This document shows, piece after piece, positions 11,895-30,583 of a DNA stretch of 64,000 nt (position 1 is its first letter; each line of letters begins with the position of its first letter). The notes under the pieces were generated by a model. The model had not been told where the DNA came from. It worked only from the letters and a program-made list of their open reading frames with translations, and ran no database searches. The stretch is taken from the NCBI GenBank assembly GCA_030429235.1, contig JAUIDB010000002.1:62001-126000 (forward strand), read 5' to 3'. The stretch comes from Thermoanaerobaculia bacterium (GTDB taxonomy: Bacteria > Acidobacteriota > Thermoanaerobaculia > Multivoradales > JAIOJS01). The translations under genes and the position numbers were made by a program.

Positions 11895-13703
11895 ATGTCA
11901 CGAGCAACCAGTCGTAGGACCGTCGATGGACTTTGGGTGAATGGCCAGCTTCTCTGGCTCGTCCTGGCTGCCTTCTGCACCGCAGTCGGAGCCTCAGCGC
12001 CGGACGGTGTGGTCGTGAGCGGCGTCCACGGCGAGCAGGCACCAGTTCCTACCAAGACCGAGATCGCGCCCTTGGACGCCTCCGAGGTGTACCACCGTTT
12101 CGGTGTTTGGCCCGGGCAGGAAGCCGGGATCGTGCTCCTGGTTCGTTCGACCGCCGAAGAAGGGGTGGCCCCGACCGACGACGACAACGACTACACGCGC
12201 ATCGTCGACGCCCTCGCGGCGGCGGCCACCCTCGGCGATGGAACCACGATCGAGCTGCTCGGGTTCTTCGACTGGACGGAGCCGTTCGCCGACGCCGACT
12301 GGGTGGCGGGGGGATTCGGTCCGCTGGCTCCCACCGGTCTCGCCGACATCACCGTCACCGCGCCCAACCGGGGCGACGCGGTGATTCAGGGCCGAGGAGA
12401 CGAGCCCGGGATCTACTACGAGGGGTTCCTCTACTTTTTCGGCGGCACCTACCAGGGCTGGGAGGTCTCCAATCTCGAGCTGCGAGGATTCGACTGGACC
12501 CTCGGCTTTTTCTACGATTCGTCCGGCGGGTCGACCGAAGACTTCAACGGTCTGAGGGTCATCAACAACCTCATCGAGATGCCGATCGACGTGAATGCCA
12601 CCGTCGACGCCGGTGAGGCACTGCAGAACATCGGCATCCACCTCGGGTTCGGCGAGGATCAGTTGATCGCCGACAACGAGATCATGATTCCGGGAAACTC
12701 CGAGAGCGACACTGCGGCGGGGAACAATGCCTCCTCAGTGGCCCTACAGTCCAACACCAGCGGCGGCGACGCCTACGATGGGCTGACACTGAGCGGTAAC
12801 CGAGTCCGGATCCTCAACGCTCCGACGATCGATCCGGGCAACGACATTGGGCCTCCCTTCATCGTCGGCCTCTGGGAGAACAGCGGCAGCAGCAGCGCGG
12901 AGATCATGGTGGTCGACAACGACTTCGTCAACGAGGACCCGGCCAACGACTCGGCCGACAACCTTCAGCGCGCATTCCGGTTCAGCTCGCAGTCGACGGT
13001 CGCCTCCGGAAAGGACGTGACCTACCTCGGCAATCTCGCGGTAGGAGCGCACTTCGGGATCACCTGGTTGGACTACTCCAGTCCGATCAGCTACCCGGAT
13101 GATTCGGCGCCGGTTCAGATCCTCGGCAACACGCTCCTCGGTAACGCCATTGCGGTCAGAGTGCGCTCGGACGACGGTGACGCACGCGGGTTCCTGCGCC
13201 ACAACCGGGTTGCGGACTCCATGGTCGGACTGCTCGTCGATCAGGGAGAGGCTGACGCCGAGGACAACTGGTGGGGTTGCAACGATGGTCTCGAAGGCAG
13301 CGGCTGCGCGGCTGCTGCTCTGCTCGCCGGAATCCTCGACGCCGATCCTTGGCTCGTAGCCTCTCTCGCCGTCGATCCGATCGAGGTGTTCGACGGTCGC
13401 CCCACGCAGGTATCGGTGGATCTGACCTGGAACTCGGACGGAATCGATACCTCCGGGAGCGGAACGGTCCCAGACGGCCTGGAGACTCCACTCTCCGCCG
13501 ACGTCGCCGGGGCCTTCGCCAATGGGCTGCCCGCCACAGTAGCCGGTGTGGCTACCGACACCTTCTCGGTCGACCCCGCAGCGATTCCAGGAGAGTACAG
13601 CGTCTTCGCTCAGGTGGACAGCGAGATGCTCGAGACCAGCCTGTGGGTGGCCGACGTCATCTTCGCCGACGGTTTCGAGAGCGGCGACACCACCGCCTGG
13701 TAG
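11895..13703 (+). CDS. Secreted right-handed beta-helix-like protein with C-terminal GFESGDTTAW tag
   Basis: A 602-residue exported protein. The N-terminus has Arg residues followed by a hydrophobic segment (GQLLWLVLAAFCTAVGASA, about residues 17-35), a signal peptide. The body has recurring short beta-strand and Asn-rich turns (NNLIEMP, DNEIMIP, GNRVRIL, DNDFVNE, GNTLLGN) typical of a parallel beta-helix as in pectate-lyase-like surface proteins, then a beta-sandwich-like part. It ends in IFADGFESGDTTAW and stop, shared with two other proteins here. No catalytic residues can be assigned. GGAG lies before the ATG. A strong hairpin follows the gene. Confidence 0.8.
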   Translation: MSRATSRRTVDGLWVNGQLLWLVLAAFCTAVGASAPDGVVVSGVHGEQAPVPTKTEIAPLDASEVYHRFGVWPGQEAGIVLLVRSTAEEGVAPTDDDNDYTRIVDALAAAATLGDGTTIELLGFFDWTEPFADADWVAGGFGPLAPTGLADITVTAPNRGDAVIQGRGDEPGIYYEGFLYFFGGTYQGWEVSNLELRGFDWTLGFFYDSSGGSTEDFNGLRVINNLIEMPIDVNATVDAGEALQNIGIHLGFGEDQLIADNEIMIPGNSESDTAAGNNASSVALQSNTSGGDAYDGLTLSGNRVRILNAPTIDPGNDIGPPFIVGLWENSGSSSAEIMVVDNDFVNEDPANDSADNLQRAFRFSSQSTVASGKDVTYLGNLAVGAHFGITWLDYSSPISYPDDSAPVQILGNTLLGNAIAVRVRSDDGDARGFLRHNRVADSMVGLLVDQGEADAEDNWWGCNDGLEGSGCAAAALLAGILDADPWLVASLAVDPIEVFDGRPTQVSVDLTWNSDGIDTSGSGTVPDGLETPLSADVAGAFANGLPATVAGVATDTFSVDPAAIPGEYSVFAQVDSEMLETSLWVADVIFADGFESGDTTAW

Positions 13704-13715
13704 CGGCCCTACCAG

Positions 13716-13767
13716 ACAACGAGAAACACCGTCCTCCGGTGGCCGGATGGACGGTGTTTCTCGTTGT
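13716..13767. terminator. Strong bidirectional terminator (19-bp perfect stem)
   Basis: Bases 13716-13734 pair perfectly with 13749-13767, and the 14-base loop itself can form a 5-bp TCCGG/CCGGA stem. It sits between the converging ends of the beta-helix gene (stop 13703) and rpoD (stop 13805). The descending arm is T-rich on the plus strand (TTTCTCGTTGTTCT). Confidence 0.85.
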
Positions 13768-13804
13768 TCTGGCGGCGGGGACCGGCGCGCCTGAACGATT
13801 TCTG

Positions 13805-19452: not shown

Positions 19453-20544
19453 TTACCAGGCGGTAGTGTCGCCCGATTCGAAGCCGTCGGAGAAGATTTC
19501 CGACGCGTTGACGACCTGGAACAGATCGGGCCGGTAGAAGGTCAGGGTGCAGCGCATCCGGTTGACCTGCTCCAGCGTGAACTCCTCCATGCAGAGGTCG
19601 TCGGTGTAGTTCATGTAGTTGCGGATGGGATTGGTCTGACCACTACACGAGGTGGCCCCGATCGGGCAGCCGAAGGTCTGACCGGACTGCTGCGGTGTAT
19701 CGCAGATCAGGTCACCGCTGCTGTAGCAGCCGGGGGGACCAGGGGTCCCTCCGCAGCTGCCGGAGAAAGTGTGTTCCAGCCCCAGGTAGTGGCCCACCTC
19801 GTGGGCGACGGTACGTCCGAAGTTGTAGGGCGGTCCGTAGGGAGAGTCGCGGCCGATCGTGTCCCAGAGGACGACGACCCGGTCGGCGAGCGAGCCGGGG
19901 AAGGTCGGGGGATACCCCGAGTCGGCAGGGAGCTGGGGCACGTAGCCCAGGAAACCGCCCGCCGAGTTGCTGTAGATGTTCAGGTAGCGCGTCGGATCCC
20001 AGGCGATGGTGTTCCAGTAGGATCCACCGTCGTTGAACCAGGTGTTGTTGGTGTAGCGCACGATGCCAGTGGTCGGATCGCCCAGAGGATCCTCGGAGGC
20101 CAGCACGAAGGTGATCATCGAATCGTTGCCGTTGGCTCCATTGGTCCCCGGCAGGGCGAGGAAGTCCTCGTTGAAGATCTCCATCTGCTCGTGGACTCGG
20201 AAGTCGGGTACGATCCCCTGGACTCCGTCGGTGTGCTGGATGATGTGGAAGACGACCTGGATCTCCCAGGTCTCATCCGGATCCCAACCTGTTGGATCCG
20301 TGTTGTTCGCCGAGCAGTCGGCGGGCAGCCCCTCGGGCTGTGGCCAGATCATCCCGAGCTGGTGCCGCAGGTCGCGGTCGAGCGTGCCGCAGCGCAGGCC
20401 TGAGGCCTGGACGTGCTGAACGGCCGCGGAAGCGCCGGCATCAAACGCATCGGCGCCCGAGTAGAAGGGGAAGTTGGACTCGGCTCCCGCCGGGACGGCC
20501 AGGGCCGACACGAGGAGCAGGCTCGAGAGCAAGCGGGTTTTCAT
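19453..20544 (-). CDS. Secreted M43 (pappalysin-like) zinc metalloprotease with GFESGDTTAW tag
   Basis: A 363-residue exported protease. Signal peptide: KTRLLSSLLLVSALAVPAGA at residues 2-21. The metzincin zinc site HEVGHYLGLEH lies near residue 247, followed by paired Cys residues (GSCGGTPGPPGC, LICDTP, CSGQTN, DLCMEEF) and the Met-turn NYMNYTDD, all usual for the M43 family. It ends EIFSDGFESGDTTAW. AGGAG lies nine bases before the ATG at 20544; frames reaching 20625 are not needed. A TATCGT -10 candidate lies at 20583-20588. It probably acts outside the cell or on the outer surface. Confidence 0.92.
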   Translation of the reverse strand: MKTRLLSSLLLVSALAVPAGAESNFPFYSGADAFDAGASAAVQHVQASGLRCGTLDRDLRHQLGMIWPQPEGLPADCSANNTDPTGWDPDETWEIQVVFHIIQHTDGVQGIVPDFRVHEQMEIFNEDFLALPGTNGANGNDSMITFVLASEDPLGDPTTGIVRYTNNTWFNDGGSYWNTIAWDPTRYLNIYSNSAGGFLGYVPQLPADSGYPPTFPGSLADRVVVLWDTIGRDSPYGPPYNFGRTVAHEVGHYLGLEHTFSGSCGGTPGPPGCYSSGDLICDTPQQSGQTFGCPIGATSCSGQTNPIRNYMNYTDDLCMEEFTLEQVNRMRCTLTFYRPDLFQVVNASEIFSDGFESGDTTAW

Positions 20545-20621
20545 GGACTTGAACTCCTGTGAACTTGGGGATGAGAGGCGTAACGATACCATGGGATCGT
20601 CGCCGACTCCTATGGAACAGG

Positions 20622-21053
20622 TCATAAATCGGCGGTCGGCTGGTGCGGTCGGACGTTGACGGTCGTGAAGCGCTGCAGTCGAACCTTGCCCGGGGCCCAG
20701 CCTCGCGGTTTGGAAACCTGAGAGCAGGTGGTCAGATGCACGGCGACGCGTCCGGCGTTGCGCGCCTTGGAGTGGTAGGCCGCCAGACCGGCGGCGAAGT
20801 CCCGAGTGTCGCGCGGTAGCCGCGTCAGGCCGTCGGGGTTCAGCACGACGACGTGCGAGCCAGAATCCCCGGCCAGATGGAGCCAGAAATCGCGCGGCGA
20901 GGCGAGTTGCAGGGTGAGGAGGTCGTTGTCGCGGGCAGTTCGTCCCACCAGGACCACGAGGCCGTCCGGGCTCGAGAACCGCCGCGCGATCGACCGGCCC
21001 CGCCAGAGGCCCTGTTCGGGGTCCGACGGTGGCGGAGGGCCGCTGCGCGCCAT
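20622..21053 (-). CDS. Free-standing NFACT-R (DUF814) RNA-binding domain protein
   Basis: The 143 residues match the NFACT-R domain of the RqcH/Tae2/NEMF family: GRTARDNDLLT, DFWLHLAGDSGSHVVV and AYHSKARNAGRVAVHLTTC, then KPRGWAPGKVRL. In full-length proteins this domain helps bind stalled 50S-tRNA complexes in ribosome rescue. Here there is no NFACT-N, coiled coil or C-terminal part, so this is a domain-only protein of unknown role. It starts one base after the TGA of the upstream repeat protein gene, implying coupling to the kinase operon. Confidence 0.85.
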   Translation of the reverse strand: MARSGPPPPSDPEQGLWRGRSIARRFSSPDGLVVLVGRTARDNDLLTLQLASPRDFWLHLAGDSGSHVVVLNPDGLTRLPRDTRDFAAGLAAYHSKARNAGRVAVHLTTCSQVSKPRGWAPGKVRLQRFTTVNVRPHQPTADL

Positions 21054-28186: not shown

Positions 28187-30493
28187 TCACCAGGCTGTGG
28201 TGTCTCCCGATTCGAAACCGTCGGCGAAGATCTGTTGGCTGGCGGCCCAGCCGAGCAGGAACTCCCGCAGGGCGTCCGGCGGATTCAGCGAGCGAGCCGA
28301 GCCCTCCTGATTGATGCTGTTGACACCGTGGCAGCCGTCGCACACCCGGATCTCCCCAGGCTGGAAAGTGATCCAGTTGCGTTCCCGGACCACCGGGGTA
28401 CCGTCGGGTTCGGTCGATTGCCAGACCATGGCCCGACGAGCGGGGACGGTGGCGGCGGTGGAACCGTCGAGAGCGACCGCCACACTGCCAGCTGGGCCTC
28501 CAGGATTGGGTGGATTCTGTACCGCTGGGTCGTGCATCACCTGGGCGAGAACCCGCCGCCCGTTGGCCGGGGTGTCGATGCCACCGATACCTCGGATCTG
28601 GTCCCCCTGGAAGTACTGGAGGTGGGCCACGTCGTAGATCGTGCCCGGCTCACCGATGGTCTGGATTCCGCCCGGCACGCGCAGGTTGAAGGGTTGCTGC
28701 CGATCGGCGACGTCGCGGGCGGTCATGTCGCGCACCACCATCAACGCCAGGTCGCGCTCGGCCAGCCACTGCTGGAACTGTGACGGATCGACGCCGGCTT
28801 CGGTGAACATCTGTTGCTCCGGAGCCTCGAGCGGAAAGGACCGTGCCGGTGGCAGAGTTCGGGACCGCACCTCGACGGGCTGCAGCTCCCACATCTCGAC
28901 GTCCGTGTAGGTCACGAGTTCGTCTGGATCCCAGTACTGGACCGATTCGACGATCCCGGAGGTCAGCTCGCCGCCCGCGGCGGGCTCGAGATAGCCACCG
29001 GACAGCGCGAGCTGTCGCAGCCGGAACTCGTAGCGGGCCACTGGGTGGTGGCGGTCTCCGTCGTTGTTGGCCTGGCGGGTCTCGAAGGTATGAGCCGCTA
29101 CGACGTTGCCGTTGGACAGGACGACGGGATCTCGATAGTGACCGCTGTGATCGGCGGGGGGAGGGCTGCCGTCCGGAACCACGGAGTCGGTCGACGGGTG
29201 CGTTTCGTAGGTGACGGCGATCTGGTCGGCAAGCGTCGTTTCCGGCGCGAGGATCGAGATGAGCTGGCCGGAGGCGTGGGTCTGGAACTCGGGAGCATCG
29301 ACGGCCCAGTAGCGTCCCGGAGAACTCGGATCCTCGGTAATCTGCAGGACGTTCAGGATCGGGTTCGGATTGAACCGACCGCTATTGTCGTCGAAGAAGT
29401 TGACCAGGTTGGGGTCATCGTCGAGAGACCGCTCGAAGTAGTCGTGAAACTCGTGCCGCCCCAGATGGTTGAGCACCTCCTCACGGGTTCCGTCCTCCTC
29501 GATCTGCCAGGGAAAGAAGTGGTTCAGCCTGTGGCCTACCAAGTTGGTGCCTTGCAACAGGTCGGTGCGGGAGGGGCGGGGTTCGGGGAACACTTCCTCG
29601 ACCGCCGGCAAGCGTGCCGCGGCGGCCGATTCGTCGGCAAAGTCGAAGGTGCCGTAGATCGTGCCAGTGGAACTGGTGTGGTCGGCGTCGGCCTGTTGGT
29701 CGCGCTGCAGGTGGTCCCAGCGCGTGAAGAGGACGCGGCCATAGCTATCGATCATCGGATCGAACGAACCCGAGGGGGAGTGCTGCAACAGAAAGAGGTC
29801 ACCATCGGCGGCGGCTGCGGTCGGGTCGAGGCTCCAGAGGCCGGTGGGAGTCTCGGTGGACTCGTACTCGTCGTGCTGAGGGTAGAGATGCCGGGCGCCG
29901 TTTCTCGGACGGTCGGAAACGAAGAGAATCCTGCCATCGGTGCCGTACGTAGGACTGACGTTGTTGTAGTCCTCGGGTTGCTTCGGGACCTTGGTGATCA
30001 CCGCTGTCTCGCCCTGGCCGAGGCCCGTGATCTCGTAGAGCTGCCAGTAGTAGTCCTCCCAGACGTAGCGCTCTTCGGTGGAGCCGATGACCATGCTGAA
30101 GACCGCCTTGGTGCCGCTCCAATGGACGGCCGGGTCTCGCACCGAGATGGAGTCGGCACCTTGGAAGACATCGGTCTCGCCAAACCCTGCTTCCTCGGTG
30201 AGGTTCCGGAGAAGGGGAGAACCGCTCGGGTAGCGGATCCACAGGTCGCCGCCCCGGCCACTCCGCGACACACGCCCATTGTGGTTGGCGAACACCGATC
30301 CGATGGTGGCGAAGTCGTCGGGGATCGGCAGCTGGGTGACGAATAGGACCGGGTACTGGAGGGTGGGTCCGCCGCCGGTCACGGCGTCGCCCGCCGGTTC
30401 GCTGGCGGCCACGAGCAGCGAAGACAGTGCGACGAAGCTGAGCAGGGCCCCGAGACGCGAAGCGAGGGACAGGGAGGAACGGGTATGCAGCAT
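28187..30493 (-). CDS. Exported propeller / mono-haem c protein resembling hydrazine synthase alpha, tagged GFESGDTTAW
   Basis: A 768-residue exported protein. Signal peptide at residues about 9-30 (LGALLSFVALSSLLVA). The middle carries PD40/WD40-like motifs (VSPTYGTDGRILFVSDRP; FDPMIDSYGRVLFTRWDHL), as in the hydrazine-synthase-alpha middle-domain family. Near the C-terminus one haem c motif, CDGCH at 718-722, follows ITFQPGEIRV. The last residues are QIFADGFESGDTTAW. The family is common in environmental bacteria that do not perform anammox, so function is open: an extracytoplasmic redox or binding protein. AGGAG lies before the ATG at 30493. Confidence 0.82.
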   Translation of the reverse strand: MLHTRSSLSLASRLGALLSFVALSSLLVAASEPAGDAVTGGGPTLQYPVLFVTQLPIPDDFATIGSVFANHNGRVSRSGRGGDLWIRYPSGSPLLRNLTEEAGFGETDVFQGADSISVRDPAVHWSGTKAVFSMVIGSTEERYVWEDYYWQLYEITGLGQGETAVITKVPKQPEDYNNVSPTYGTDGRILFVSDRPRNGARHLYPQHDEYESTETPTGLWSLDPTAAAADGDLFLLQHSPSGSFDPMIDSYGRVLFTRWDHLQRDQQADADHTSSTGTIYGTFDFADESAAAARLPAVEEVFPEPRPSRTDLLQGTNLVGHRLNHFFPWQIEEDGTREEVLNHLGRHEFHDYFERSLDDDPNLVNFFDDNSGRFNPNPILNVLQITEDPSSPGRYWAVDAPEFQTHASGQLISILAPETTLADQIAVTYETHPSTDSVVPDGSPPPADHSGHYRDPVVLSNGNVVAAHTFETRQANNDGDRHHPVARYEFRLRQLALSGGYLEPAAGGELTSGIVESVQYWDPDELVTYTDVEMWELQPVEVRSRTLPPARSFPLEAPEQQMFTEAGVDPSQFQQWLAERDLALMVVRDMTARDVADRQQPFNLRVPGGIQTIGEPGTIYDVAHLQYFQGDQIRGIGGIDTPANGRRVLAQVMHDPAVQNPPNPGGPAGSVAVALDGSTAATVPARRAMVWQSTEPDGTPVVRERNWITFQPGEIRVCDGCHGVNSINQEGSARSLNPPDALREFLLGWAASQQIFADGFESGDTTAW

Positions 30494-30583
30494 GGTGTCT
30501 CCTGAATGAGGACACGACGCTAGCAGCGACTCCGCGCGAGGCGCAGTGAATTCGGTCACACCCGGTCGACGGCTCTCCTGCGA

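Follow-up and report, generated by a model that had tools for sequence, protein, structure and literature searches.

Results

Three exported proteins in the window end in the same tag

The window is a 64,000-nucleotide stretch (C86:62001-126000) of a Thermoanaerobaculia genome of 4.85 Mb in 92 contigs, here called G000. The first-pass annotation had reported that three exported proteins in it share a C-terminal tag, and translation bore this out, with IF[A/S]DGFESGDTTAW placed right before the stop in all three open reading frames and at the coordinates given (Table 1). The three tags are written in unlike codons (GACGGTTTCGAGAGC.., GACGGCTTCGAATCG.. and GACGGTTTCGAATCG..). The assignment of the second protein to the M43 metalloproteases was confirmed by Pfam; its likely start is MKTRLLSSLL.. 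at 20544, and its predicted structure, built from a three-row alignment, reached a pLDDT of 29 and is uninformative. The first protein, given the "beta-helix" label, was matched by neither the Pfam nor the NCBIfam scan. The family found in the third protein was matched by two of the 58 tagged proteins scanned. Just 3′ of the first tag's stop, a long near-perfect inverted repeat was seen by eye at window positions 13713-13775 (acaacgagaaacaccgtc / gacggtgtttctcgttgt), which is probably a terminator.

Table 1. Tagged genes of the window and the candidate receptor gene of the same genome
Feature	Position	Strand	Basis
Tagged exported protein, 602 aa (the "beta-helix" protein)	11895..13703	+	Signal peptide by crude score
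Tag IFADGFESGDTTAW of this protein	13659..13700	+	Translation; stop TAG 13701-13703
Tagged exported M43 metalloprotease	19453..20625	-	Pfam PF05572, 9e-20; aligned to tagged homologues
Tag IFSDGFESGDTTAW of the M43 metalloprotease	19456..19497	-	Translation; conserved in homologues from other genomes
Tagged exported protein with hydrazine-synthase-alpha middle domain (HZS_alpha)	28187..30559	-	Pfam PF18582, 5e-10; translation
Tag IFADGFESGDTTAW of the HZS_alpha-domain protein	28190..28231	-	Translation
Strandless protein, 215 aa (outside the window)	G000:C62:68160-68807 = L036:3361-4008

The tag recurs throughout the genome

A search of the full genome, which had been proposed at first pass, gave far more copies than the three claimed. 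A degenerate DNA pattern for DGFExGD (GAYGGNTTYGARNNNGGNGAY) matched 76 times in G000 and its reversed control not once, and 72 of the 76 matches translated into tags with a stop at most 22 residues away; the tag is therefore not a product of chance. Between the tag Trp and the stop lie 0-8 residues in these 72 tags. Half of them (36) end at the Trp, and the others extend by short tails such as SLP, SSTVP or SSASP. Counted from the Asp of the core, D0, G1, F2, E3, G5 and W10 are invariant and F(-2) and D6 nearly so, although the extraction pattern presupposes a DGFE.GD core, so that unbiased constancy is that of W10, F(-2) and [ILV](-3). Upstream of the tag, comparison of the 72 copies revealed no residue conservation. 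All 72 differ in DNA, which rules out recent DNA copying as their source and, together with the unlike codons of the three window tags, sustains the earlier claim that selection keeps the match. Eroded tag copies were also seen: DGFESGNTAGRSSSTS at L051:3196 (-), whose frame has no start codon, and DGFETGSTDAW at L036:6012 (+), followed by 49 more residues.

Tagged proteins are exported and differ in fold

The first-pass annotation had asked whether tagged proteins generally carry signal peptides and different folds, and they do. A crude signal-peptide score, applied alike to tagged ORFs and to other long ORFs of the same loci, was passed by 52 of 58 complete tagged ORFs versus 43% of 355 untagged ones; several of the six that failed have evident signal peptides by eye. 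The 58 tagged proteins matched 67 Pfam families, including M12, S8, M28, GH44, FG-GAP, Kelch, GSDH and beta-helix, and a common fold was ruled out, since the sequence upstream of the tag is not shared and the Pfam families are many. NCBIfam matches, some of them weak, comprised choice-of-anchor B/Q, rhombotarget A, SVAGG GlyGly-CTERM and M36, the last of the myxosortase-dependent and T9SS-dependent types; several tagged proteins thus belong to families that bear other sorting signals in other bacteria. The tag itself was covered by no Pfam or NCBIfam model in these scans, and the motif was found in none of the papers searched.

Strict tags are largely confined to Acidobacteriota

The strict tag was found in 31 of the 40 genomes of the order, with up to 115 copies per genome, and in 12 of 396 Acidobacteriota genomes, which answered the call for a search of related genomes. 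It was missing from genus g3, although 58 copies occur in G036, a genome from the same family. In GTDB r220 a narrow codon pattern gave no match and a looser strict tag-plus-stop pattern matched 62 stretches; apart from one "uncultured bacterium", their titles all name Acidobacteria/Acidobacteriota, Thermoanaerobaculia, Thermoanaerobaculales or Holophagae. Two genomes of another class, G204 (L150:1356) and G047 (L151:9976), encode homologous exported proteins of ~300 residues that carry each genome's sole tag. No strandless domain (see below) was found in either, and the tag may have another use there or have been imported.

The tag sequence opens a larger domain elsewhere

Outside the tagged proteins, the tag motif opens a domain of ~200-270 residues, which in low-copy genomes is C-terminal and measures ~245-270. 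Full-length copies of this domain start with the tag sequence (LVFGDGFESGDTSAWSG, GLFADGFESGDTSAWTN), and the 17 copies tabulated do not vary at D0, E3 or W10. In many genomes related domains stand in tandem with the motif before each, and because these strand-domain arrays terminate in a domain, the motif is the first strand, or N-terminus, of the domain and not its end. The earlier concern that the motif might be part of a larger folded domain thus holds for these proteins; the tagged proteins carry that strand alone. The closest solved sequence for the first strand is the CBM22 module of xylanase 4xup (FEEGTTQGW, E 0.01). Pfam matches of the domain, to polysaccharide lyase and CBM_4_9 families (best CBM_4_9 E 0.05), were weak and below the Pfam thresholds, so we can call the domain only putatively jelly-roll-like. 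In family f77 of the same phylum, G398 (L275:7784-8527 (-), L276:6223-8286 (+)) and G230 (L277:7473-8237 (-)) between them encode the domain both at full length (LFADGFESGNTSAWSVTVP..) and in strandless-like form, and the pattern found no strict tag in either genome.

A second set of exported proteins lacks exactly this strand

A further set of proteins carries a signal peptide and then enters the domain directly, without its first strand, so that the second element comes first. In about 25 of these strandless proteins the signal peptide stands immediately before the second element; the strandless frame of G025 has no clear signal peptide. At the sequence level, the tag equals the strand that they lack. 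Most are small, single-domain proteins with no visible anchor, including that of G000, and those of G005, G028 and G030 bear SLH domains (1e-16 to 5e-12). Downstream of the G000 gene, an eroded tag follows at ~2 kb and an intact one at 4 kb, on two genes that are related. A search of viral contigs for the strandless protein found none.

The strandless proteins at L036:3361-4008, L170, L172 and L173 have (D/E)FxS[FY]R at their ends, in some cases with TLAP or TMLP. This last strand bears a partial resemblance to the tag core, and the proteins might self-associate through it. In G010, the signal peptide of the protein at L152:2902-4443 (-) is followed by a strandless domain, and the same protein ends in a DGFESGDVSAW tag, an arrangement that could let it dock onto itself or form head-to-tail polymers.

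Tag and domain are co-distributed

We built a profile from the strandless domains, called A3, which counts full-length as well as strandless copies. It was found in 31 of the 40 order genomes and was missing from the g3 genomes among them and G021, which have no tag, and from G024 and G035, which have 8 and 11 tags; no receptor was detected in the latter two assemblies, which are 93% and 91% complete. None of the 14 tag-less g3 genomes searched in total has it. Among 42 further genomes, A3 was found only in G400 (55 tags), G169 (one tag, on the same contig) and G224 (no tag), which are also its only carriers among 24 class outgroups. Phylum-wide, 14 of 396 genomes have it, namely 10 of the 12 tag genomes versus 4 of the 384 others (Fisher 3e-15, a value inflated by relatedness, with g3 representing a single loss); the genus-level table of tag and A3 reads 20/2/2/27. 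The domain occurs without a strict tag in G224, G230 and G398, and two apparently tag-less A3 carriers, G006 and G013, proved to have variant C-terminal tags. The co-distribution partly owes to shared ancestry, and some other partner may fit the tag distribution equally well or better.

Strandless genes adjoin tagged genes and polysaccharide loci

In eight mostly low-copy genomes (G005, G013, G028, G030, G034, G010, G025 and G001), the gene immediately upstream of a strandless gene, and on the same strand, encodes a tagged protein. G010 has two such loci (C64 and C72), and the gap in C64 is 4 bases. These adjacencies amount to about five independent cases, each with a chance of 0.002-0.05 by a rough tag density for which tag numbers were estimated. 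Many strandless genes are located in surface-polysaccharide loci. Those without SLH domains have LGYL-ending sulfatases, glycosyltransferases, AlgI/AlgX-like acyltransferases, sulfotransferases and DegT aminotransferases nearby. LGYL ORFs numbered 25 in 260 kb near strandless genes, compared with 7 in 920 kb of G000 background and none in 610 kb of other loci; the resulting ~13-fold enrichment of LGYL-type sulfatases is indicative, since the 610-kb background covers few locus types.

Discussion

Overall, Thermoanaerobaculia have in this tag a real C-terminal signal that had not been recorded before, and the partner proposed for it is plausible, if unusual. The features general to C-terminal sorting signals, namely a signal peptide, diverse folds, one tag and a co-distributed partner, were all found here. 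Because signal peptides were scored in 52 of the 58 tagged proteins, their families are many and a partner is co-distributed, there is good support for the earlier proposal of a dedicated C-terminal signal whose partner is encoded at another site in the genome; nothing pointed to proteolytic processing, which that proposal had also allowed. From the sequences, we predict that the tag very probably functions as a sorting signal, and a sorting or anchoring function is well supported.

We provide a putative mechanism for how the tag is read. The N-terminal signals of tagged proteins would direct them out of the cytoplasm via Sec or Tat, and their C-terminus would display what we take to be a beta-strand detached from the N-terminus of a jelly-roll-like domain. 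A separately encoded, exported strandless protein, in G000 the 215-residue protein of Table 1, would serve as the receptor. After export, the tag would occupy the empty strand position of this receptor by strand complementation and would stay on the protein after docking, so that a single receptor could hold many unrelated enzymes, either at the cell surface or within the polysaccharide coat. As judged from sequence, such docking of exported proteins onto the strandless receptor is probable; the surface location of the docked proteins and their crossing of the outer membrane we infer.

Other explanations were weighed against strand complementation. The reader of the tag might be a membrane protease or transpeptidase of the exosortase kind, the strandless protein being a mere exported member of the lineage. 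A short exosortase-like protein (~190 aa, the C-terminal half of PF09721) is indeed present in 26 of the 40 order genomes, including G000, and absent from the tag-less g3. However, its association with the tag (Fisher 0.04) is weaker than that of A3, and the tag, with at most 8 residues past the Trp, has neither a membrane helix nor a basic tail. PF09721 is also absent from the tag-rich G002 (87 tags) and G018 (74 tags), both of which have the strandless domain; an exosortase was therefore rejected as an obligatory partner, and we regard a membrane-enzyme reader as quite unlikely. The exosortase-like gene lies, with that of a second small protein, between pyrB/pyrC-like and smc-like genes, at L291:7111-8423 (-) (G000:C6) and L290:8121-9290 (+) (G036:C19). 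Unlikely, too, is that the strandless protein acts as a periplasmic chaperone or adaptor that delivers tagged proteins to, for instance, a type II secretion system (T2SS), with anchoring separate or absent. That most strandless proteins are small, single-domain and anchorless would suit an adaptor, and G000 has a T2SS locus; yet the SLH-bearing representatives and those in polysaccharide loci suggest a surface role, and a T2SS was found in the tag-less G003 as well and is therefore not specific to the tag. The T2SS was rejected as a specific partner, and the apparent loss of GspD in g3 was, by gene context, a loss of the type IV pilus PilQ.

The remaining alternatives concern the tag itself. 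It would be a functionless fossil if it were a strand left from a lost or truncated domain and spread by recombination, and the motif does start a real domain, with a best match to the CBM22 strand of 4xup. Against this, its core is (nearly) invariant in 72 unrelated proteins whose codons all differ, and it has been kept across most families of the order, which together argue for purifying selection; a fossil is thus highly improbable. Alternatively, a receptor could recognise the tag as a small ligand or a structural mimic, for instance in a calcium- or carbohydrate-dependent manner, with the tag perhaps imitating the receptor's last strand (..DDFESFR). Receptor C-termini such as LDDFESFRT resemble the core ADGFESGDT, and the acidic residues of the tag might bind calcium. 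However, the likeness to the last strand extends over only ~5 residues, whereas the whole tag, including the W at +10, finds its match in the first strand of full-length copies, and we consider mimicry very unlikely.

Most C-terminal sorting signals known from Gram-negative bacteria work either through membrane enzymes or through a folded secretion domain. The statement made at first pass that exosortase and rhombosortase tags look different agrees with the 72 tags, in which membrane helix and basic tail are missing. Similar to the GlyGly-CTERM/rhombosortase system, unrelated signal-peptide proteins here share just a C-terminal tag and have one co-distributed partner, and tag and partner genes, which are adjacent in single-target genomes of that system, adjoin each other chiefly in low-copy genomes (PMC3237569). 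Client families are shared as well (rhombotarget A and SVAGG matches). In contrast, our tag lacks the tripartite arrangement of motif, helix and basic tail, its partner is predicted to be a soluble, strandless, jelly-roll-like protein and not a membrane protease, and copies reach 115 per genome compared with up to 13 for GlyGly-CTERM (PMC3237569). With PEP-CTERM/exosortase the tag shares a C-terminal position on diverse exported proteins, an occurrence in environmental bacteria and a link to exopolysaccharide genes (PMC1569441). It differs in having no PEP motif, transmembrane helix or basic cluster (the 72 tags read DGFExGD..xW plus 0-8 residues), and the cognate exosortase is not in every tag genome, as G002 and G018 illustrate. 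Unlike the folded C-terminal domain of ~70-100 residues in T9SS (Por) secretion, the tag has no common sequence upstream, and no T9SS C-terminal domain was among the 25 most frequent NCBIfam families of the 58 tagged proteins scanned.

In the cohesin-dockerin system of cellulosomes, a C-terminal module docks many enzymes on a receptor, which is sometimes SLH-anchored. The dockerin is a calcium-binding module of ~70 residues, whereas the tag has 14, and library scans gave no sequence relation between them. A peptide strand completes an incomplete beta-domain in SpyTag/SpyCatcher, an engineered split, and in the donor-strand complementation of the chaperone-usher pathway, in which donor strands build pili; unlike these, one receptor would here serve dozens of unrelated enzymes. 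CBM22 and CBM_4_9 modules have a first strand with the same FE-G....W pattern (FEEGTTQGW in 4xup; weak PF02018 matches), although the domain matches fall under the Pfam thresholds and the rest of the domain is absent from tagged proteins.

The system could, with about an even chance, be a natural, genome-wide tag and catcher, in which a jelly-roll-like domain is split into a strand serving as a 14-residue address, carried by as many as about 100 exported proteins, and a remainder serving as an SLH-anchored or polysaccharide-tied surface receptor, and which decorates Gram-negative cells independently of a sortase. If true, the recognition of a short, detached strand by a protein in which exactly that strand is missing would represent a different sorting principle, and the compact natural peptide tag and its small partner would be usable at the bench. 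It would also explain the destination of dozens of exported Thermoanaerobaculia hydrolases, and the tag provides an annotation marker for the large uncharacterised secretome of these bacteria.
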